A DNA stretch of 64,000 bases, taken from positions 36,665-100,664 of the IMG/VR virus record IMGVR_UViG_3300040801_004314. One strand, 5' to 3'. How positions within the stretch are numbered: the first letter of the stretch is position 1; each line of letters begins with the position of its first letter. The notes beneath the pieces are model-generated. The model saw only the letters and a list, made by a program, of their open reading frames with translations, made no database searches and was not told the DNA's origin. The position numbers and the translations under genes were made by a program. The DNA is from a virus. Positions 16,534 through 42,161 of this stretch are shown here, in pieces.

Positions 16534-19058
16534 ATAAGGTCAAATGAACCACCGCCGTCAACAGGATTTATTACAGGGGGCAATTCTTCTGGATCACCCG
16601 AACCTGGATTTGGTGTAAGACCACCACCGTTGTCAAACCCACCAGTATCTCTACCTAATTGTGTGAATGATCTTATTTCTACTTCACCATTTGGTATATC
16701 TTGAACAAACCTTAGAGTCACAAATCTTGATGCAGTGCTAGGATTGCTACTTATTGAAAATATAAGATTTACACCTCCTGTATCACCAATTTCATCGGAA
16801 TTTTGTATATTTACATATGTACTATAATTTCCTAAGTTTGATATTGTCCAAGGCGCAGTAGAATCAACGAATAGTGTAAATGCCCCTCCTCTACTCAAAA
16901 TATCATTTGGTGGTATTTCAGCAACAGTAAACACATTATTAGGTGCTGCTGCCTGTGTTATTCTAACTGAGTCAGTATCATTATCAACGTTTGTAAAGCC
17001 TATTCTCGCAGCTCTTAGTGTTGTTAGTGGGTTCTGTGTAAATGTAATAGTAACTTGTGTAGCCCCACTACCAGATGATGCTGGCGATACACTAGTTACG
17101 TATGTGGAGTCTATATCACCTGAGTCAACTATCCAACTAGAAGTACTATTCACAGTTACTGTGGTGCTAGTAGCAGTGTTTGTTACGTTAGAATTTTCAG
17201 GTGTTACTGTGATGTTAGATGGATCTGGTTCTGGTTCTGGCACAGTGATAGGGTTATCGTCTCGCCCCCCACCGCTAGGTGGGGGGGTACTAAAATCCCC
17301 GACACCAACATATATTATGTAAGCTAATGCATAATAGGGTGGTAGGTTTCTATTTGTACCTGAAACACCAGTAGTGTTCACATTATGTGAGTGTGAACCC
17401 CCAAATACATTTTTATTCCAAGTTCTATTAACTGGGTTATTATCAGATGCTGATGGTATACTTTTAGTTTCTGATTCACCATTACCACCTAATTCTTGAG
17501 ATATTGAGTGAGAGTGTGATCCACTATTAGAAATAGTATGACTGTGAGATACTACAACAGAATCGGTATATCCACCAGTTTGGTTAGCATTATATTTATC
17601 ACCTCTACCAACTATAAATCTATTTACAAGGTTAGGTATTTCGATCCCATTAACTGTTCCACCTTGGCACAGCCTCCACCCCTCAGGAATTTGTGAATTA
17701 CTACCAGAAAACATAACAATAGTCCTTAACGGTACAGAGCTTCCTACTTCTTCCTCTTCTTCATTTCTAGGATTAGAGTTAAAACCAACTTTTATTACTT
17801 TTTCTGTCCAAGGTTGATCTGTAACATCTACATCATTCACATAACTCATGTATATTTCTGGCTCAGATGTTAAATTACCTATTAGTGAGTAAACTGCTGT
17901 TGTGTAGTTAGTTTTTACTTTCTGGTAAAAATATATTCTTCCTTGTGAGTCACTACCCTCTCTTACTATCCTAAAGTCGTCTTCAACAAAATGAGAAGTT
18001 CCGTAATTACAAATATTTGCATATATTCTATTGGCTTCTGTTTGGGATTTAAAAGCAATATGTAGATCAGTGTTATGTGCATCATTTTCTATACTACCAC
18101 TGCTGTTAATAGATAACTTAAATCCAAAAAAACTAAAAGTACTAAATGGTAAGCTAAATAATTTAATCCATTGCCCCACTCTGTTATTTGAAGAACTAGG
18201 TGATTTGAAATTATAATACCCTCTAGTTGCTCTTATATTACCAACTACATCTAACCTTTCTGTGGATGATGATTTACCTAATGATAAATTCCCATCAACA
18301 AAAGCAGAGCTACCAACTCTGAATAAGCCATCACCTCTCAATTGTATAAACCTATCACTTACTTCGTTTTTTATAGTAAAATCACTATTAGCAGAAGTAC
18401 CAAATCCTATGTATGCTTGTCTAGTCGAGCCATTATTTTCATAGAAAGGGATAAATAAAACATTAGAATTACCACTTGAGCTACCATAAAGTCTTAAAGG
18501 AACAGAACCTCTAAATATACCGCTACCATTTACATCTAATCTCTGTGAAGGTGATGTTACCCCTATACCAACATTACCATTAGGATTAACCCTAAATCTT
18601 ATAGCATTATTAGTAACCATCTCAATGGTATCATTTGCTGGGAATCTAATTATTGTATCACCATCGCCTATATGTCTTATTTCAGAATCTATGTATAATC
18701 TTTGTCTAACATTAACTTCGCCATTCACATCTAGTGTTCTAGATGGGTTAGGGATATTAATACCTATATTTCCATTATTTTGATAAACCACAGAATTAGA
18801 TACTGTATTTGCGCTTGAAAATAAAGCTAATCTGTTTGGTGTACCATTAACAAAACCAGTTGATTGGTTTTCCTCCACCCATTCATCACCATCCCAATAA
18901 AAAGAATTTGATGCATCTTTATCCCACACTCTTAATCCTTCGTACTTATGTGTTATGCTATTTTTTGTCTCATAAAACTCACCAGCACCAACAACAAACC
19001 TATTATCTATTGGTTTTGCTGTATTTACTTCAAAGTTATCTATTAATGGTGTTGACAT
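16530..19058 (-). CDS. Tail fibre protein with collar domain and BACON-like repeats
   Basis: 842 residues. The N-terminal half carries repeated GNIGINIPNPSRTLDVNG-type units (about 96-113, 163-178, 258-272), typical of trimeric fibres. A phage tail collar domain spans about 441-585 (PEGWRLCQGG, NRFIVGRGD, several His-rich SHSH motifs, LPPYYALAYIIYVG). Two Ig/BACON-like domains follow (about 613-703 and 708-808) with WIVDSG, TITFTQNP and RITQAA, resembling Bacteroidetes carbohydrate-binding BACON modules. It likely contacts host surface glycans. It is the last gene of a leftward fibre operon. Confidence 0.82.
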   Translation of the reverse strand: MSTPLIDNFEVNTAKPIDNRFVVGAGEFYETKNSITHKYEGLRVWDKDASNSFYWDGDEWVEENQSTGFVNGTPNRLALFSSANTVSNSVVYQNNGNIGINIPNPSRTLDVNGEVNVRQRLYIDSEIRHIGDGDTIIRFPANDTIEMVTNNAIRFRVNPNGNVGIGVTSPSQRLDVNGSGIFRGSVPLRLYGSSSGNSNVLFIPFYENNGSTRQAYIGFGTSANSDFTIKNEVSDRFIQLRGDGLFRVGSSAFVDGNLSLGKSSSTERLDVVGNIRATRGYYNFKSPSSSNNRVGQWIKLFSLPFSTFSFFGFKLSINSSGSIENDAHNTDLHIAFKSQTEANRIYANICNYGTSHFVEDDFRIVREGSDSQGRIYFYQKVKTNYTTAVYSLIGNLTSEPEIYMSYVNDVDVTDQPWTEKVIKVGFNSNPRNEEEEEVGSSVPLRTIVMFSGSNSQIPEGWRLCQGGTVNGIEIPNLVNRFIVGRGDKYNANQTGGYTDSVVVSHSHTISNSGSHSHSISQELGGNGESETKSIPSASDNNPVNRTWNKNVFGGSHSHNVNTTGVSGTNRNLPPYYALAYIIYVGVGDFSTPPPSGGGRDDNPITVPEPEPDPSNITVTPENSNVTNTATSTTVTVNSTSSWIVDSGDIDSTYVTSVSPASSGSGATQVTITFTQNPLTTLRAARIGFTNVDNDTDSVRITQAAAPNNVFTVAEIPPNDILSRGGAFTLFVDSTAPWTISNLGNYSTYVNIQNSDEIGDTGGVNLIFSISSNPSTASRFVTLRFVQDIPNGEVEIRSFTQLGRDTGGFDNGGGLTPNPGSGDPEELPPVINPVDGGGSFDLI

Positions 19059-32982: not shown

Positions 32983-34596
32983 TTACTTTATGGTCAAATC
33001 TAAGGTTTTATCTATACCCAGTTCATCCCTAAAATAGTCTTCGGTGGGTGTTATACCACTCTCAATTATTTTATTTATATTGATATCTGGGACCCATTTG
33101 AATATTTCTAAGTTAACATGTTGTTTAACCTTTCTAAGCCTTACAAGATAAGATACGATATCACTCTCTAAATATTTCTTAAATATTAATAACTCTTCTT
33201 CTGTGTTAAAATCAAAAAAAGAAAAGCTTTGGCTACATAATTCACCTGGTTTAGCAATTATCATTCTGTTATACCACTCTTTTCTCATCCCACCAGAATT
33301 AGTTGTATTTGGTATAAGTAGTTTCCATTTATCTACTTTCTTAAGCCTTAGGTCAATACCTGATATATACTTTATATTACCCTTTACTTTAGAAACATGA
33401 CACTTATACTGCCCACTCTTATACAATCTTTGATCATTAGTTTTAATACCAAAATGTAGAGATGAGTTAAGCCTGTAATTAATATTTTTCTTATCAATAA
33501 CTTTATCAATTATAGAAAATGCTAATTCAGATGTATCATTCGGTATTATTTCATATTTAGATAAATTGATGTACTCACCATCTACCATAACTTTAGAGTT
33601 TTTAATGCTAGATTTATCTATCAAGGAATAATTAACACCACCTCTTAATTTGAAATTATCATATACATCATCACTCTTTATAGTGTTTATTATTTTTAAA
33701 CCAAAATCATTAATCATTTTTCTCCTAAATGCACTATTGTTACTTTTACTAAACCATCTAATAGGTGATGTGCTTACTGTTAACCTAGACATAGATTGAG
33801 ACTTTTCTATAAATTTATCATAGTAATCCGAATAGTGTTGTGATTTCTCCTTTACCTTTTTGAAAGGTGGATCTTGTATAACTAGGTCAAAGCCCTCAAT
33901 GTCCCAAACACCTTGCATATGCTTTTCAAAACCATCTGATAAAAAATCTCCCCAAAATATATTAGGATTATATTCGCTATTTACATCAATAGAAGTAAGC
34001 CAACCAAAGCAATTTTTTATATTTATATCTCCATAGTATATGCAATTGTTTATGATCCATTTTAGTCTTTCTTCCTCACCAATTATTTTCCCTGATAGAC
34101 CATCCATAAACTTTTCTATGACTAGCAATAATATATTACCAAAGCCACCACAGGGGTCTAGAACTTTATGATAAGGGTTTTCCCAAAATGAACTATCATA
34201 ATTATCAATCATTTCAATCATTGGAATCACTAGCTTATTTTGGGGTGTCTTTATAATACTTTTTGACTTTATTTCATCATCATTATACTTTAAATATTGA
34301 AATACATTTCTCTGAACCTTTTTTATTCTATCAATACCATGTGTTTTTTCTATTATATTTTTTAGGTCATACCAAATAATATTCTCATCACCTAAGTAAA
34401 CTAAGTTAGAATATCTTTTATCCTTAAGATTCACGTCATTTAAGTAAGCTTTTAAATCTTCATCTAAGCAGTATTTATCATTTATTATTTTTAAAATGGC
34501 ATCGTTGAATATATCTATAGATTTAGAGCTTTCGAAAACTTCTAATATATTAGTATCATTATAAAAACCTTTACTTGTACTTTTTACGTCTATCAT
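32983..34596 (-). CDS. DNA methyltransferase with C-terminal specificity region (gamma-like)
   Basis: 537 residues. A helical N-terminal part (1-110), AdoMet-binding motif LDPCGGFGN (146-154), catalytic FDLVIQDPPF (DPPF in place of NPPY, 242-245), then a C-terminal region of about 200 residues (YKCHVSKVKGNIKY, LRLKKVDKWKLLIPN, FSFFDFNTEEELLIFKKYL) like target-recognition domains of Eco57I/Type ISP enzymes. Its start codon overlaps the stop of the upstream helicase (ATGA), indicating translational coupling. Probably the modification and specificity subunit of a three-gene system. Confidence 0.78.
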   Translation of the reverse strand: MIDVKSTSKGFYNDTNILEVFESSKSIDIFNDAILKIINDKYCLDEDLKAYLNDVNLKDKRYSNLVYLGDENIIWYDLKNIIEKTHGIDRIKKVQRNVFQYLKYNDDEIKSKSIIKTPQNKLVIPMIEMIDNYDSSFWENPYHKVLDPCGGFGNILLLVIEKFMDGLSGKIIGEEERLKWIINNCIYYGDINIKNCFGWLTSIDVNSEYNPNIFWGDFLSDGFEKHMQGVWDIEGFDLVIQDPPFKKVKEKSQHYSDYYDKFIEKSQSMSRLTVSTSPIRWFSKSNNSAFRRKMINDFGLKIINTIKSDDVYDNFKLRGGVNYSLIDKSSIKNSKVMVDGEYINLSKYEIIPNDTSELAFSIIDKVIDKKNINYRLNSSLHFGIKTNDQRLYKSGQYKCHVSKVKGNIKYISGIDLRLKKVDKWKLLIPNTTNSGGMRKEWYNRMIIAKPGELCSQSFSFFDFNTEEELLIFKKYLESDIVSYLVRLRKVKQHVNLEIFKWVPDININKIIESGITPTEDYFRDELGIDKTLDLTIK

Positions 34597-36251
34597 ATTC
34601 TGTTTGATTTAAGTAATTCTAAAGGCGACATATTATTTATTCTTTCACGCCTTTCTAATTCTATTAAATCTTTGTCAAAAGTTTCTATATTATGAACTAT
34701 TTCTTCTATAAAAACAGCTTTTTTTTGCTTTCTGTCTAAATCATTTAATCCATCGTCCTGATATACGAGTTCAGATTCAGCTATATCGTCACCCAATGAG
34801 ACTTCAAATCTAGGATCAAACCCCCATCTATCTCTCATATCTTTTATAGTAAATGCAAGTTGTTCTTTTGTGAACTCGCTTCTACTATCCCAATAAGGTA
34901 GTATTACTGCACAATATGGTTTTATCCATTTAGATAAATCATCTTGTGATAGGTTACCCTTTCTTATCTGGTTTCTATCTTTTTTATGAAGTCTAGTTGA
35001 TCTACCAACATTTTGTATTATCTTAGCACGTGTAGGCATTTTTCCCTGTAAAAACATAACACCTGTTATACCTGGTACATTTATCCCCTCACTGAATATA
35101 TCATATTGTAATATTATTGCAGGTTGATTATCTTTTATTTTTTGAACTTTCCCAACAAATTCATCTCTACTTTTTATCCCCTCATCATCTATAAAATGGT
35201 TATTGGGGCTATTTTTGTTATATGATGCACCTGCGCATATAGTAACATCAGGCATTAGTCTATTTAATTCCCTTTGTAAATCCCACATTCTAGGCACAGA
35301 CTCACACCTTACGAGTATTTTAGGGGCAATGTCTTTGGGTTTCGAAGAATTTTTCTTTAACCACTTCTTATGAGAGTTAAAAACTTCTTTCACAAATAGA
35401 GACTTATTTTCTAACGAATCATAATTCTTATCCTCTATTATGTCCGAGGGAAGTGCCACATGTATTATAGGTGTTGATATATAAGATTTTTGAATACATT
35501 TTTTAAATGGAACAGTATATATATCACCGAATATATCTTTGTTGTTCATCAAAAATATATCAGAAGTCTCATCTTCTTTTATTAATTCGGTGTCAACATC
35601 TTTAGGTGTAGCAGTAAAAAAGAAACGCCTTTTAGTATTTATTACTTCATAAGATTTTTTAAAATCAGAATCTTCCTTTTCAGAAGCCAATATATGCGCT
35701 TCATCACAATATAAAACATCAAGATGTTGATCTTTTAATTTGTCTAAACTATTGTAAGTGGATATAATAATGGTTTTAAAGCCTTTTGAGTCATTATCTG
35801 CGACAATTCGATTTATCTCTAGTGGACTCAAAGAAGATTTAAATATGTTGCTCTCAGTTAGTCTATCGGTTATGTCTACTTTTAAATTATACTTGAATAA
35901 CGAGTTGTTAAAGCTTCTTGCTAAAACCTTGTCTTTCTGTAAAACTTTGTTTATGTCCAAAGACATAGATCCAACTGTTAGAAATTTGACCTTACCTATT
36001 AGCTCTAACTCACAAAAAAAGTCTATTAAATCTTTTAAATGTTGGTTATTAAGGCTAAGTCTGTGACTAGCTATGGCTACTTTAGTATCTTTAGTTTTAA
36101 TAAGCCTCCACAAAATATGCAATATCATAACATACCCCTTACCCACACCAGTAGGAACTCGGAATTGATGAACATTATTAGCTTGTAGGAGTTTGAACAT
36201 TTCTCTTTGGTCATCATTCAAAGTCAACAAAATTTCTTTAATATCTCTCAT
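34593..36251 (-). CDS. SF2 helicase, DEAH type (restriction-translocase-like)
   Basis: 552 residues with RVPTGVGKGY (Walker A), LYCDEAH (183-186), FFFTATP (motif III) and a motif VI-like QNVGRSTRLHKKDR. The fold and motif spacing suit UvsW-like helicases and the translocase domains of Type I, III and ISP restriction enzymes. The gene order (nuclease, this helicase, methyltransferase) and overlap with the methyltransferase gene favour a restriction-type role over UvsW-type repair, but the two cannot be separated by sequence alone. Confidence 0.8.
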   Translation of the reverse strand: MRDIKEILLTLNDDQREMFKLLQANNVHQFRVPTGVGKGYVMILHILWRLIKTKDTKVAIASHRLSLNNQHLKDLIDFFCELELIGKVKFLTVGSMSLDINKVLQKDKVLARSFNNSLFKYNLKVDITDRLTESNIFKSSLSPLEINRIVADNDSKGFKTIIISTYNSLDKLKDQHLDVLYCDEAHILASEKEDSDFKKSYEVINTKRRFFFTATPKDVDTELIKEDETSDIFLMNNKDIFGDIYTVPFKKCIQKSYISTPIIHVALPSDIIEDKNYDSLENKSLFVKEVFNSHKKWLKKNSSKPKDIAPKILVRCESVPRMWDLQRELNRLMPDVTICAGASYNKNSPNNHFIDDEGIKSRDEFVGKVQKIKDNQPAIILQYDIFSEGINVPGITGVMFLQGKMPTRAKIIQNVGRSTRLHKKDRNQIRKGNLSQDDLSKWIKPYCAVILPYWDSRSEFTKEQLAFTIKDMRDRWGFDPRFEVSLGDDIAESELVYQDDGLNDLDRKQKKAVFIEEIVHNIETFDKDLIELERRERINNMSPLELLKSNRI

Positions 36252-36947: not shown

Positions 36948-38732
36948 TTATTTCCTATATACAAACTTTAGAGATCCTAAATCCCATATTCTATAAAAGC
37001 TCTGCTCATGCATTATTTGTATTTCTGTTTTATTTATATCATGTCCCTTTGACACTAGCAAATCTTTTCTAAAATTAAATCTGTTCTTTCTTTTATAGTC
37101 TATTATATAGAAATAGTTGGGTATTGTTTTATCAACTAGTTCAAATCCAAGGTTTTTATATAAGTTTCCCTCACTCCACCTATAATCAGCATAGCTCAAA
37201 ATGTAATCTGGATTGTATTTGTTTATGAAATATTTAAATAACCTAGAAGCACCACCAACTATACTCAAGCCTTTCTTATTACAAAACCTTAGCAACTCAT
37301 AGTGTCCTTGTTTACTTTTTTGTCCAAGGTTTTTTCTCAAAGAACCGAATGTTATTAATGATACTAGCTCATCTTTATAAAATAATCCTATTTTAACTTT
37401 AGATCCTACAAATCCCTGTAAGTGGTTTTCCTTTAAGAATTTTTTTATTAACTTATTATCAGAAATTTCTTTAATAATGCATTTTCTAGCTCCTATTTTC
37501 CTAGAAAATCCTAAAGCATTCTTTATTCTAGATTTTATTATATCTTTATTACTATCCCATTCATCATCAAATATGATTATATCATGGTTATCTTTTTTTA
37601 TCTTAGTTGTGTTATTAAAAATTTCAGATTCTTTTATAGTTTTCAAAAATCTTATTTTTATTTTTTCATTGTAAATCATATCATCCTTTAAAACTGTTTC
37701 ACTATACAAACTCTTTACGAATAAAAAAAGTTCAACTATATCAGAATCGTTCTTTTCTTTTTCAAATAAATACTTGAAATCATTTGTATGAATAGTAACT
37801 TCCTTACCATCATCATTTAAACACACACAAGTCTTTTTATTTCTTTTCAATAAAACATATCTATCTTTCTTATAAAAGAAGAGATCTCCTTTATTTATGA
37901 GAAACTTATTTGATTTAATGTTATCTGTTTTATTCTTATATTTAAAATAATACCTAGTGGGTGATTTTATATCACCTCTACAACATTTAGATATTAAGGA
38001 TTCATTTATACCAGTGTTTTCCGATGCCTCTTTTACAGACTTAAAAGATTTTAAGTATTCCATGTTTAAATTATACATATCTACCTCCTTGTTGAATTTT
38101 TGACAAGATTGCTTTATCAAATCATTGGATATGTTATTTTTTCTATGTTCTTTTAACCTAGTCTTGGCTTCTTCGGTATGTTTCTTCCCATACATAGGGT
38201 GACTTACGCCACTCATTAATTCTGAGTGGCGTTCTTTCACTTCTTCACTATGTTTTTTCCCATAGAATCCATTACCTTGACCTTTCTGCTTTTGTGACAT
38301 TTTTTTAAGTGTTTCTTTTTTATGATTCCATTTTAAATTCTTAGATAGATATGTTTTTGATATTTTATCTTTAACTTCCTGCGTATGTGGGCTACTTAAC
38401 CTACCATCTCCACCACCTGTTAAATTAACTAATGAACCATTTAACTGATCTCTCCTACCTATTAAATTTATGTATTTTTTCTCTAATAAGATAGCTTTTT
38501 CGTTACTTATACCTTCTTTTATTTTAATAGATATGATTTCTACCCCAAGGCTATTTAATTTATCTATTTTATTCTTTTTAAAAGAAGTCTTATCGTATAA
38601 TGTATCTTTTATTCTATTACCAGTTCCTTTACCTATATAAAAAGGTTCATAATCGAAAGACAAATCGTCATATTTATAAGTTCCTGGTTTAGACGAATCT
38701 AATAATGCATAAACATAGTAGTTACTATTCAA
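36948..38732 (-). CDS. GIY-YIG homing endonuclease with NUMOD motifs and Mom/GNAT-like C-terminus
   Basis: 594 residues. A GIY-YIG nuclease domain at the N-terminus (YYVYALLDS ... FYIGKGTGNRI), two NUMOD3 motifs (GFYGKKHSEEVKER, PMYGKKHTEEAKTR), a NUMOD1 helix-turn-helix segment (LKSFKSVKEASENTGINES), a degenerate remnant of the Vsr-like domain (IIIFDDEWDSNKDI), and the C-terminal domain shared with two other endonucleases (NHLQGFVGSK, ELLRFCNKK, VGGASRLFKYF, YADYRWSEGNLYKNLGF). It sits at the 3' end of the truncated polymerase gene, where a homing element would be expected. Confidence 0.82.
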   Translation of the reverse strand: MNSNYYVYALLDSSKPGTYKYDDLSFDYEPFYIGKGTGNRIKDTLYDKTSFKKNKIDKLNSLGVEIISIKIKEGISNEKAILLEKKYINLIGRRDQLNGSLVNLTGGGDGRLSSPHTQEVKDKISKTYLSKNLKWNHKKETLKKMSQKQKGQGNGFYGKKHSEEVKERHSELMSGVSHPMYGKKHTEEAKTRLKEHRKNNISNDLIKQSCQKFNKEVDMYNLNMEYLKSFKSVKEASENTGINESLISKCCRGDIKSPTRYYFKYKNKTDNIKSNKFLINKGDLFFYKKDRYVLLKRNKKTCVCLNDDGKEVTIHTNDFKYLFEKEKNDSDIVELFLFVKSLYSETVLKDDMIYNEKIKIRFLKTIKESEIFNNTTKIKKDNHDIIIFDDEWDSNKDIIKSRIKNALGFSRKIGARKCIIKEISDNKLIKKFLKENHLQGFVGSKVKIGLFYKDELVSLITFGSLRKNLGQKSKQGHYELLRFCNKKGLSIVGGASRLFKYFINKYNPDYILSYADYRWSEGNLYKNLGFELVDKTIPNYFYIIDYKRKNRFNFRKDLLVSKGHDINKTEIQIMHEQSFYRIWDLGSLKFVYRK

Positions 38733-38777
38733 AATTATTGATTAATTTGTAAGTATATATAACGTGACTTCGGATAC

Positions 38778-40304
38778 CTATATTTCGGCTTTAAGCTTGG
38801 AAATTTTATTGGTTATCTTTTTAAGCTCTTCTTTTCTGGACATCATAATTTTTTTATTCTTCTTTCTATCAGCGTACACGTCCTCTAACATTTTTAATGT
38901 AGGTGACAGCCTTTTTTCAAAAACTGTCTTGTTAACGCACACTACGTGGTTATCAGGGTCTATTTTCTTACCATTTGTACACACTGTTTTGTCATTAGGG
39001 CTTTGCAAACCTACAAAATTTTCTGGTGCAATGTAAAATTGCCTTTGTGTGGTTGGATAAAGCGAAGCGAAATCATAGCAGACAACCCACTGATTTAGAC
39101 CTACAACAGGATCTCGAACCCAACCACCTTTAATGGTTGACTCAGCAGGACCTTTATCATCTTTGAATAAAACAGTATTATCCTGTTCTCTAAACCGATT
39201 CCTTAAGACACCTTCTGTTATTGCTAGTGATGCCAAAGAGTTATTCATATGGGATATTACATCTACTATTCTAATTCTAGCTAATGAAGATATCGCAAAT
39301 ATTATAGATATGTAGTTTCTAGATTCGTGTATTTTTTGAACTAGAACACTATCCACTGCGTTATAATACATAAAGGTTTCAAAATCATCTTCATATAATT
39401 TTTGTAATGATCCAGTATATTTAATTTTTTCTACATCTACTAATTTACTTGATACAAAATCTAATGATGAACTTTCTTTCACTTTGATAGATGTATCTGC
39501 TATCTCATATAATTGCATGTAGTCAAAAATCATTCTATGTGCAGGTAGCTCAAAATCTGCACCCCACTGTTTTGTTATCTTTCTAGTAAGTGAAGATACA
39601 TTTGGATTAATATTGTATTCTTTACCATTGACCGTTTTAGATATTTTCCTAGCTCTATTAACCAAATATAACCAGTCATACTTAAGGAAGTTCCACCCTG
39701 TTAACACTGGCATTTTTGGGACCATTTTATTGAAAAAATTATACATCATATCAAATTCATCATCATATTTTACATATCTGAATTTATATTCTGTACCAAA
39801 CTTCTTAAAATATTTATTGGTATTATCTTTAATTCTTTTCTGCATATCCTCAGGCATATCTTTTAAACCTAATAATATTATTTTATCGTCATACACTATT
39901 GATATAGATAGTACTCTGGTTGCTGCTCCCTCCTTTATTACATTTCCTTCGTTGTCCAAAATGTCGGCTGCTTCTGGAAATCCATCTACAATTTCTGTTT
40001 CAATATCAATGAAATATATCTTTGGTATATTAAATGCGAAAATTTCTTCTTTTTCTTCCTCTGGAAGATCATCTAAGAAATTATAGACAGTATATCTATC
40101 TGGATAATTTACCTCAACTTGTTTCACACGTTTATCATCCCAAGATTTATATTTAGGATCTTGATGTGGATCATTATCATCACACGATACGTATTTCATT
40201 GGGTTATCCCAATTGTAATACTTTAGTTTTAGTTCACCGTTTTTATCAACGTAACTAACTACTAATCTTTTTGTCTTTTTTAAGTATTGAGTTTCTACTA
40301 GCAT
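38778..40304 (-). CDS. Family B DNA polymerase, N-terminal part only (gp43A-like)
   Basis: 508 residues cover the exonuclease domain (FIDIETE, an NFLKYDWLYL exo II region, YYNAVDSVL exo III) and the start of the palm with motif A (CYDFASLYPTTQRQF). The frame then stops after a coiled KKITNKISKLKAEI tail, before motif B (KxxxNSxYG) and motif C (DTDS). Those halves are absent from all reading frames in this window. In some T4-like phages gene 43 is divided into 43A and 43B by an endonuclease insertion, and a GIY-YIG gene lies here right after the break. The polymerase must be completed by a partner gene elsewhere. Confidence 0.88.
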   Translation of the reverse strand: MLVETQYLKKTKRLVVSYVDKNGELKLKYYNWDNPMKYVSCDDNDPHQDPKYKSWDDKRVKQVEVNYPDRYTVYNFLDDLPEEEKEEIFAFNIPKIYFIDIETEIVDGFPEAADILDNEGNVIKEGAATRVLSISIVYDDKIILLGLKDMPEDMQKRIKDNTNKYFKKFGTEYKFRYVKYDDEFDMMYNFFNKMVPKMPVLTGWNFLKYDWLYLVNRARKISKTVNGKEYNINPNVSSLTRKITKQWGADFELPAHRMIFDYMQLYEIADTSIKVKESSSLDFVSSKLVDVEKIKYTGSLQKLYEDDFETFMYYNAVDSVLVQKIHESRNYISIIFAISSLARIRIVDVISHMNNSLASLAITEGVLRNRFREQDNTVLFKDDKGPAESTIKGGWVRDPVVGLNQWVVCYDFASLYPTTQRQFYIAPENFVGLQSPNDKTVCTNGKKIDPDNHVVCVNKTVFEKRLSPTLKMLEDVYADRKKNKKIMMSRKEELKKITNKISKLKAEI

Positions 40305-40355
40305 AATATTTTTTTATATACCTTATATGAACAAAAATTAAAATGTTTATATATA

Positions 40356-42161
40356 ATGTGTATGTGTGATAATAGTAAGTTTTATAAATTCTCAGAATCT
40401 GGTATTAAAAAAAGGAATCCTGACCTTTGGAAAGCTATTAATGATCATATAAGTATTGATTATATTAAATTTAAAGAAAAGTTTTATTTATATGATAATA
40501 AAATACATAACATACCTAAGTGTTATTGTGGGAATCCAGTTAAGTTCATAGACATGAAAAAAGGATTTAGAGAATTTTGCTCTAAAAAATGTGTTTATGG
40601 TTCAAAAAAAGTAAAGAAGAAAAGAAAAGAAACATCTATAAGCAGGTATGGTGTCGATAACCCATCCAAATCATCTAAAGTTAAAAATAAAGTAACAGAA
40701 ACTAATAAAGAGAAATTTGGTCATGATTGGGCTACTCAAAACGATAAAGTATTGAAGTCTATAAAAGAGACTAATTTAAAAAAATACGGTGTTGATAACC
40801 CATCCAAGTTAAAAGAAATTAGAGAAAAAGCCAAAAGTACTATGGTAGATAAGTATGGTGTAGAATATGCTATGCATTCACCTATTATAAAAGAAAATCT
40901 AAAAGAGTATTTTATAGAAAAGTTTGGTGTTGATAATCCTCTAAAGGTAAAGAAAACAAGAGACAAGATTAAAGAAACTATGCTGAATAGGTATGGTGTA
41001 GAATACGCACTTCAAAGTAAAGAGGTTGTTGAAAAACTAAAAGAGACAAATAAGAGTAAATATAACTCTGATTTTTATATCACATCAAAAGATTGTAGAG
41101 ATAAAACAAGAAAACATACAAATCAAAAAAATAAAAAAATAGTAGACGATAAGAGATATACATTAAATGATTCGTCTACAAGAGAGTATGATATAAAGTG
41201 TTCAAAATGTAACGATTCATTCACTATACAAAGGCAGTTATACCGAAACAGGTTAAAAAATGATGAAGAAATTTGTTTAATATGTAATCCCATATCTAAA
41301 AATACTTCAATAGCTGAAAAGGAAATATTAGACTATATAAAAAGTATTTACAAAGGCATTGTTTTAGAAAATAATAGGATTAATAATAAAGAAATTGATA
41401 TTTATCTACCAGAATTAAAATTAGGTTTCGAATATAATGGTTTATATTGGCATTCCGAGTTAAATAAGGATAAAAACTATCACTTAGATAAAACTGAGTT
41501 TTTTAATAATATTGGAATAAACCTTATACAAATATGGGAAGATGAGTGGACTAGCAAGAAAGATATAGTAAAGTCCATGATAAATAATAAATTATCTAGA
41601 TCTAATAGAATATTTGCCAGGAAATGTACTGTTAAGGAGATAACAGACAATAAATTAGCTAAACAGTTTATAGAAGATAACCACATACAAGGCTTTGTTG
41701 GATCTAAAATAAAGTTAGGGTTGTTTTATAATGAAGAACTAATTAGCATAATGACATTTGGGAAAGTTAGAAAATCATTAGGGCAGTCTAACAAGGGTAA
41801 TAATTATGAGTTGCTTAGATTTTGTAATAAGTTAGGATTTACAGTCGTTGGGGGTGCATCTAAATTGTTTTCATATTTCAAAAAGAACTTTGTATTTGAT
41901 AAATTAATTTCTTATTCATTAAATAGCCATTCTAAAGGTGGTGTTTATTCTAAAATGGGATTTATTATAGATGGAAATTCTAGACCTGATTATTTTTGGT
42001 GTAAAAATGGTATAAGGTATCATAGATTTAATTTCAGAAAAGACAAATTAGTTAGTCAAGGTGAAGATATAAACAAAACTGAAAAAGATATAATGTATGA
42101 AAAGGGTTACTTTAGATTATTCGGATGTGGATCTAAAAAGTGGATTTATGAATCAGAATAG
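40356..42161 (+). CDS. Homing endonuclease, Vsr/EDxHD-like with Mom/GNAT-like C-terminal domain
   Basis: 601 residues; a longer paralogue of the endonuclease downstream of the capsid gene. A Cys motif (CYCGNP ... CSKKC), five or six KYGVDNPSK-type repeats (DNA-binding), CSKC and CLIC zinc-like pairs, a nuclease core with EIDIYLPELKLGFEYNGLY, WHSE and IQIWEDEW, and the C-terminal domain (NHIQGFVGSK, MTFGKVRKSLG, ELLRFCNKLG, VVGGASKLF, SLNSHSKGGVYSKMGF). It lies upstream of and divergent from the polymerase gene, flanking it with the GIY-YIG gene on the other side. Likely mobile. Confidence 0.78.
   Translation: MCMCDNSKFYKFSESGIKKRNPDLWKAINDHISIDYIKFKEKFYLYDNKIHNIPKCYCGNPVKFIDMKKGFREFCSKKCVYGSKKVKKKRKETSISRYGVDNPSKSSKVKNKVTETNKEKFGHDWATQNDKVLKSIKETNLKKYGVDNPSKLKEIREKAKSTMVDKYGVEYAMHSPIIKENLKEYFIEKFGVDNPLKVKKTRDKIKETMLNRYGVEYALQSKEVVEKLKETNKSKYNSDFYITSKDCRDKTRKHTNQKNKKIVDDKRYTLNDSSTREYDIKCSKCNDSFTIQRQLYRNRLKNDEEICLICNPISKNTSIAEKEILDYIKSIYKGIVLENNRINNKEIDIYLPELKLGFEYNGLYWHSELNKDKNYHLDKTEFFNNIGINLIQIWEDEWTSKKDIVKSMINNKLSRSNRIFARKCTVKEITDNKLAKQFIEDNHIQGFVGSKIKLGLFYNEELISIMTFGKVRKSLGQSNKGNNYELLRFCNKLGFTVVGGASKLFSYFKKNFVFDKLISYSLNSHSKGGVYSKMGFIIDGNSRPDYFWCKNGIRYHRFNFRKDKLVSQGEDINKTEKDIMYEKGYFRLFGCGSKKWIYESE

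Follow-up and report, generated by a model that had tools for sequence, protein, structure and literature searches.

Split DNA polymerases of family B are known from T4-like phages of Aeromonas and Acinetobacter, in which gp43 is encoded by two genes, 43A and 43B, that lie about 2.4-3 kilobases (kb) apart in the replication cluster. For the T4-like phage 25, a passage of PMC2988022 that cites Petrov 2010 mentions that the 43A and 43B chains purify together and show activity. In Jug phages, according to a 2025 preprint, polymerase genes are split by endonucleases (PMC12363816), and the GenBank record of the Tenacibaculum phage PTm1 already names its polymerase split and intein-containing. Here, we analyzed a polymerase gene on a 64,000-nucleotide (nt) stretch of viral DNA, termed the window, which comprises bases 36,665-100,664 of the 100,664-base IMG/VR record IMGVR_UViG_3300040801_004314. 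The gene encodes the N-terminal half (N-half) of a split family B polymerase, and the analysis was extended to the C-terminal half (C-half) in relatives, where short inserts interrupt polymerase motif B.

For such inserts, the closest described systems are cases of translational bypassing. In gene 60 of T4, the take-off and landing codons match, a stop codon follows the take-off codon, a stem-loop is present, and a homing endonuclease is linked to the insert (PMC5009743). The same review describes the byps of Magnusiomyces capitatus mitochondria, which are many short, translationally bypassed inserts in coding genes, some of them without perfectly matched codons, and states that counterparts of T4 gene 60 have long been presumed to exist (PMC5009743).

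The polymerase gene and its parts are located in the window as follows.

38778-40304, minus strand: N-half of a split family B DNA polymerase, 508 residues, with an ATG start and a stop codon at its end (open reading frame (ORF), Pfam, PHROGs, alignment and structural model)
39054-39074, minus strand: polymerase motif A, DFASLYP, residues 411-417 (D411, S414, L415, Y416 and P417 invariant in the alignment)
38784-38903, minus strand: last helix, residues 468-507, the first finger helix, at the tip of which the protein ends (model; alignment of the unsplit relative L396 to RB69 gp43)

We consider it very probable that this gene is intact and encodes the N-half of a family B replicative polymerase, that the clade encodes this enzyme as two genes far apart from one another, the products of which would assemble in trans, and that the endonuclease genes flanking the N-half are later mobile insertions. 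The frame contains the exonuclease domain, the first part of the palm with motif A, and the first finger helix. Pfam matched DNA_pol_B_exo1 at residues 162-264 (9.5e-7) and DNA_pol_B (8.5e-6), the latter with profile positions 25-149 of 453 only. In an alignment of 29 relatives, D100, E102, N205, D210, Y314 and D318 of the exonuclease motifs, as well as D411 of motif A, were invariant or nearly so. The AlphaFold2 model of the protein (predicted local distance difference test score 85, predicted template modelling score 0.81) has a terminal helix of 40 residues, and its best match in the PDB is RB69 gp43. PHROGs contains separate families for the N-half and the C-half (phrog_2062 and phrog_1918).

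The end of the gene is shared throughout the clade. About 60 distinct N-halves, ranging from 86% down to 37% identity, all end in the same helix at the finger tip, and their length is mostly 467-514 residues. One relative is unsplit: L396:3001-5847 encodes a single chain of 949 residues, in which the ends of both halves are fused as ..DRKKNKKWATESKDKAKTYSDQMKAEKSKL-KPDKELMAELKVKYEEAMASYNRFDAIQMALKLVLNGSYG.. When this chain was aligned to RB69 gp43 (1clq; E 1.7e-27), the break fell between the two finger helices, which are named here as in the RB69 structure. The break thus lies at the finger tip, and each chain supplies one of the two long finger helices. The active centre is also divided, with motif A on the first chain and motifs B and C on the second. 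A single T4/RB69-like enzyme would form in trans, with the two chains meeting at the finger helices and the palm. In the N-half tree, strong support places L396 among the split polymerases, and the simplest reading is that it is a natural re-fusion of the two halves, although long branches leave the deep order unsure. This fusion indirectly suggests that the two chains may bind each other and polymerise together. As a separate observation, four N-halves (L053, L055, L064 and L076) carry an in-frame insertion of 46-58 residues, always at the same position, which lies behind the exonuclease motifs and ahead of motif A; they are otherwise normal.

An initial annotation, which was made from the sequence alone, had described a family B polymerase frame that ends after 508 residues with the exonuclease and motif A present, and the ORF, Pfam and the alignment agree on this. 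It had called the frame truncated, which has to be corrected: with the same end in about 60 relatives, the frame is a full-length N-half gene and not a truncation. A read-level frame error, which had also been considered, is ruled out, as the stop occurs at this position in about 60 assemblies that are independent of one another. Motifs B and C had been reported as missing from the window, and this absence extends to the whole 100,664-base record, in which PF00136 yielded a single match, namely the frame at 38778-40304, and the C-half of a relative used as a query yielded no match at E<=10. Neither a frame with motifs B and C nor a second complete family B polymerase, both of which the annotation had proposed to look for, was found in this record. 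Because this PF00136 search recovers both halves in complete relatives, the absence of the C-half is real for the record, which is evidently a fragment, as the genomes of relatives comprise 460-735 kb.

The gene might instead be a pseudogene, i.e., a polymerase truncated by endonuclease insertion in a phage whose genome is replicated by another polymerase. The half-enzyme in the 100-kb record and the mobile endonucleases on both flanks would fit this explanation. However, about 60 relatives share the same end, the ratio of non-synonymous to synonymous substitutions (dN/dS) of the N-half versus four relatives was 0.03-0.05 (with dS saturated), and the C-half gene is conserved in all complete relatives. 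For the clade, the pseudogene explanation is refuted by this conservation, and we regard it as extremely unlikely overall. Two points weigh against an intact two-gene polymerase: the C-half of this phage was not seen in its own record, and the split may have arisen once or several times, as its label needs three changes on a tree whose branches are long.

It is similarly improbable that a split intein located at the break joins the halves to form a single chain, as in the fractured genes of Dassa 2009. The C-half is indeed interrupted by split inteins at motif C (DTDS) in PTm1, LR756500, Lak-C1 and some IMG/VR relatives. At the finger break, however, the last part of the N-half is a helix made of polymerase sequence, and the C-half begins at a plain ATG followed by polymerase sequence; no intein sequence was found on either side of this break, and inteins occur only at motif C of some C-halves. 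None was found in the C-halves of LR745206 and LR756502, the closest complete relatives of the window. Inteins at motif C, often split, were seen in L018, L022, L105, L108-L111 and L118, and in L105 and L108-L111 the intein occurs together with a motif B hairpin insert in the same C-half gene.

The two halves are separate genes in 8 out of 8 relatives that were searched whole. The nearest records in a translated search were LR745206 (79%), LR756502 (74%), LR756501/3 (43%), LR756504 (41%), LR756500 (32%) and Lak phages (28%), and the nearest relatives of the window phage are Mahaphage-type huge phages. The LR records belong to huge phages described in Al-Shayeb 2020. In Mahaphage and Lak genomes, the distance between the halves ranges from about 11 to 280 kb, often with the genes on opposite strands. 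The approximate positions (in kb) were:

LR745206: N-half 232.8, plus strand; C-half 131.9, minus strand
LR756502: N-half 253.9, plus strand; C-half 121.9, minus strand
LR756504: N-half 255.9, plus strand; C-half 539.2, minus strand
LR756501 (of 735 kb): N-half 91, minus strand; C-half 709, plus strand
Lak-C1: N-half 163, minus strand; C-half 391, plus strand
LR756500: N-half 262.5, minus strand; C-half 251.7, minus strand

Both halves were also present on nine IMG/VR contigs, 41-171 kb apart. In the smaller phages PAU, pT24, PTm1, MA9V-1/2 and Vibrio V6Aob, the halves are at most a few kb apart. In Chryseobacterium phage MA9V-2 (L009), a TnpB-family gene located between the polymerase halves immediately precedes the C-half gene; it does not occur there in the related MA9V-1 (L120). 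We infer that the C-half of the window phage is encoded in the part of its genome beyond the 100-kb record, which would put at least about 23 kb between it and the N-half if it lies on one side, or 75 kb if it lies on the other. The suggestion of the initial annotation that the second half lies elsewhere and that two chains are formed is probably right: the halves are separate genes in 8 out of 8 relatives searched whole and far apart in Mahaphage and Lak genomes, the window phage's own C-half is not in the record, and assembly in trans is deduced. Assembly in trans leaves the genes of a split enzyme free to drift apart, here up to hundreds of kb, and annotation of huge phages will miss half of such a polymerase. 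Bacterial genomes, when scanned for the C-half, yielded no relative of it.

The comparison with T4-like 43A/43B, which had already been drawn in the annotation, was borne out. Both are family B polymerases with the same break at the finger tip, and the 43A proteins of the Acinetobacter phages Acj9 and Apostate (502 residues) are broken at the window's position; in Apostate, a mobile endonuclease is found near 43A/43B, as beside the N-half in the window. In contrast to the T4-like halves, those of the window clade are tens to hundreds of kb apart and often on opposite strands, the phages belong to a different group, and the split is common to the whole clade. The split in Acj9 and Apostate is apparently independent of that in the huge phages. 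PTm1 shares the finger break and additionally has a split intein at motif C, where a Vsr endonuclease separates the pieces. At the finger break itself, there is no intein.

The genes next to the N-half are as follows.

36948-38732, minus strand: GIY-YIG/NUMOD homing endonuclease, 45 bp downstream of the polymerase half and in the same direction; mobile passenger (Pfam, PHROGs)
40356-42161, plus strand: DUF7487/Vsr-like homing endonuclease, upstream and divergent; mobile passenger (Pfam, PHROGs), absent at the LR745206 locus L002
42235-44539: flanking genes of 156, 120 and 162 residues and thymidylate synthase; order common with LR745206, which has the empty site lacking the Vsr-like endonuclease

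The types and orientations of both endonucleases had been predicted correctly, with strong matches to homing/HNH endonuclease families of PHROGs, while their nuclease domains scored below the Pfam cut-offs. The downstream gene matched NUMOD3 with 47.4 bits (over the cut-off), NUMOD1 at the cut-off and GIY-YIG with 24.3 bits (just under the cut-off of 27). For the upstream gene, the DUF7487 match reached 105.6 bits and that to the Vsr-like MTES_1575 remained below the cut-off (E=0.0035). Both endonucleases are passengers that were inserted later and did not cause the split. In LR745206, the gene order from thymidylate synthase to the N-half, compared by reading, is that of the window minus the Vsr-like gene. 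A GIY-YIG relative lies just downstream of six other N-half loci, one of which also has the Vsr-like gene upstream, and a Vsr-like relative lies downstream of the N-half in LR756500. Most N-half loci examined have neither endonuclease and the same break, and the split is therefore older than the present endonucleases. The annotation had offered the endonucleases as the explanation of the break. Apostate, with a MobE gene between 43A and 43B, and PTm1, with its Vsr endonuclease between the C-half pieces, speak for such a role, but it is contradicted by the relatives with the same break and no endonuclease as well as by the Mahaphage halves, which are far apart with no endonuclease needed. A causal role of adjacent homing endonucleases is thus unlikely; for the present ones it is refuted, and the ancestral split may have been made by an endonuclease that has since been lost.

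A C-terminal stretch is common to both endonucleases of the window (45% over 282 columns), and the nuclease domains in front of it differ, which, at the sequence level, reads as a modular exchange of the cutting domain. In one of the two endonucleases, this stretch is weakly similar to Mom (GNAT fold).

Inserts in motif B were seen in the C-half genes of relatives, all of them outside the window and the 100,664-base record. Motif B was resolved in 57 unique C-half genes, and a stricter set comprised 54. In the stricter set, an insert of 36-48 nt was present in 34 genes (31 distinct inserts), 19 genes had none, and one (L132) had an unrelated insertion. Inserts were found among the loci L078-L116, L129, L136, L138, L153, L214, L223 and L264-L309, and they occupy six neighbouring codons of motif B, namely QL|A, LA|L, KL|V, LN|G, NG|S and SY|G. 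Their layout consists of a codon X, usually one further codon, a stop codon, a GC-rich hairpin, a few nucleotides and a codon X'. An early in-frame stop within two codons was present in 27 of the 31 distinct inserts. The hairpin stem comprises 8-17 bp and usually starts 5-6 nt behind X, the take-off codon. X and X' were synonymous, with the first two bases equal, in 23 out of 23 distinct inserts located at the five sites other than SY|G. The stems vary between inserts while pairing is kept: inner pairs amounted to 100% in an insert's own arms, which follows from the construction of the stem search, and to 58% when arms were exchanged between inserts, with a maximum of 69% over 1000 exchanges.

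In a structure scan of 4.3 Mb of fetched DNA, part of it redundant, the full architecture was confined to these inserts, and it did not occur in shuffled DNA. A simpler hairpin pattern, applied to 26 whole records, returned these inserts and a few matches in one contig of 597 kb. Two extra CCCCC..GGGGG matches in this contig are intergenic and terminator-like and were discarded, and a hairpin in the window at 17265-17286 turned out to be ordinary coding sequence (PPPSGGG). A covariance model of the inserts had no match in the window, a result of little weight, as MAFFT misplaced the 3' arms and the model contained no base pairs.

The codon-phased match together with the stop and the hairpin position fits translational bypassing of the T4 gene 60 type. 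The ribosome would let go at the take-off codon and pair again at the synonymous codon behind the hairpin, and we regard it as probable that ribosomes bypass the motif B inserts in this way. Two results weigh on the other side: the early stop is missing in 4 of the 31 inserts, and matched codons were found in 0 of 8 cases at SY|G. This site breaks the codon-matching rule, and a mechanism at the RNA level may operate there.

As far as their sequence allows a judgement, the motif B cassettes would work like T4 gene 60/mobA, of which membership is not claimed. Common to both are a short gap with an early stop, a hairpin, a linked endonuclease inherited together with the gap and, at five of the six sites, the codon match. 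The motif B inserts differ in that they occur in another gene and another phage group, with 31 distinct inserts at six codons, that the hairpin lies wholly behind the take-off codon, that one site lacks matched codons, and that bypassing is deduced. The byps comprise 81 inserts over 12 organelle genes, whereas the motif B inserts are confined to one phage gene and tied to an endonuclease.

Alternatively, the inserts could be very short introns that are removed from the RNA. Their precise edges, strong hairpins that would bring the ends together, the complementary ends of some SY|G inserts and the lack of a codon match at SY|G are compatible with introns. However, splicing needs no match in codon phase such as that seen at the five other sites, and Rfam families gave no match to the inserts. 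We know of no self-splicing RNA as short as 36-48 nt. Introns are therefore a possible but doubtful explanation. It is still less likely that translation stops in the insert and restarts behind the hairpin, which would result in a polymerase of three chains. Such a restart could account for the early in-frame stop, and TTG or GTG codons are found near some inserts. But in about half of the inserts, at least 29 codons separate the resume point from the first in-frame start, and for the first ATG this holds in 29 of 31, such that motif B would be lost, whereas the codons up to both insert edges are conserved and under purifying selection.

Bypassing, as the favoured explanation, goes along with signs of mobility. 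A homing endonuclease gene was located directly upstream of the C-half gene, in divergent orientation, in 18 of 34 genes with an insert versus 0 of 20 without (Fisher p 4e-5, uncorrected for kinship). These endonucleases contain DUF7487 repeats and belong to PHROGs homing endonuclease families. Those near the type of L090 occur with inserts at QL|A, LA|L and KL|V (11 genes), and those more distant from it with LN|G, NG|S and SY|G (6 genes); L138 was ambiguous. L086 (empty) and L088 (occupied) are sister alleles, the upstream flanks of which are mostly 89-97% identical and differ by a clean insertion of about 0.9 kb that carries the endonuclease in L088. Their C-half genes are only 75-84% identical over the first 150 nt and then mostly 91-99%, a pattern that is the trace expected from homing with co-conversion. 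At least 11 changes of the insert label are required on the C-half tree, where its scatter equals that of shuffled labels. L094 and L096 have inserts at different sites, and the protein encoded downstream is near-identical. The upstream homing endonuclease would travel together with the 36-48-nt hairpin, which is placed inside motif B. The C-half of the split polymerase is likely, with a probability similar to that of bypassing itself, to be a recurrent target of mobile cassettes that consist of a homing endonuclease and a bypassed hairpin, with at least 31 distinct elements at six motif B codons.

Split family B polymerases are already known. In the open-licence literature, to which the search was confined, we did not find described either the far-apart halves as the state of a huge-phage clade or the motif B insert-endonuclease cassettes, and both are apparently undescribed there. 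The inserts matter more than the distance between the halves, as natural translational bypassing is known from very few systems. If the interpretation is true, they would form a large viral family of natural bypass sites resembling that of T4 gene 60, inside an essential two-gene enzyme. With 31 inserts and with occupied and empty sister alleles at hand, the rules of bypassing and the homing-cassette model are directly testable.

Elsewhere in the window, downstream of the polymerase half, an Eco57I-like methylase gene adjoins a DEAD/ResIII helicase gene (32983-36251), and the two possibly form a modification or defence pair.

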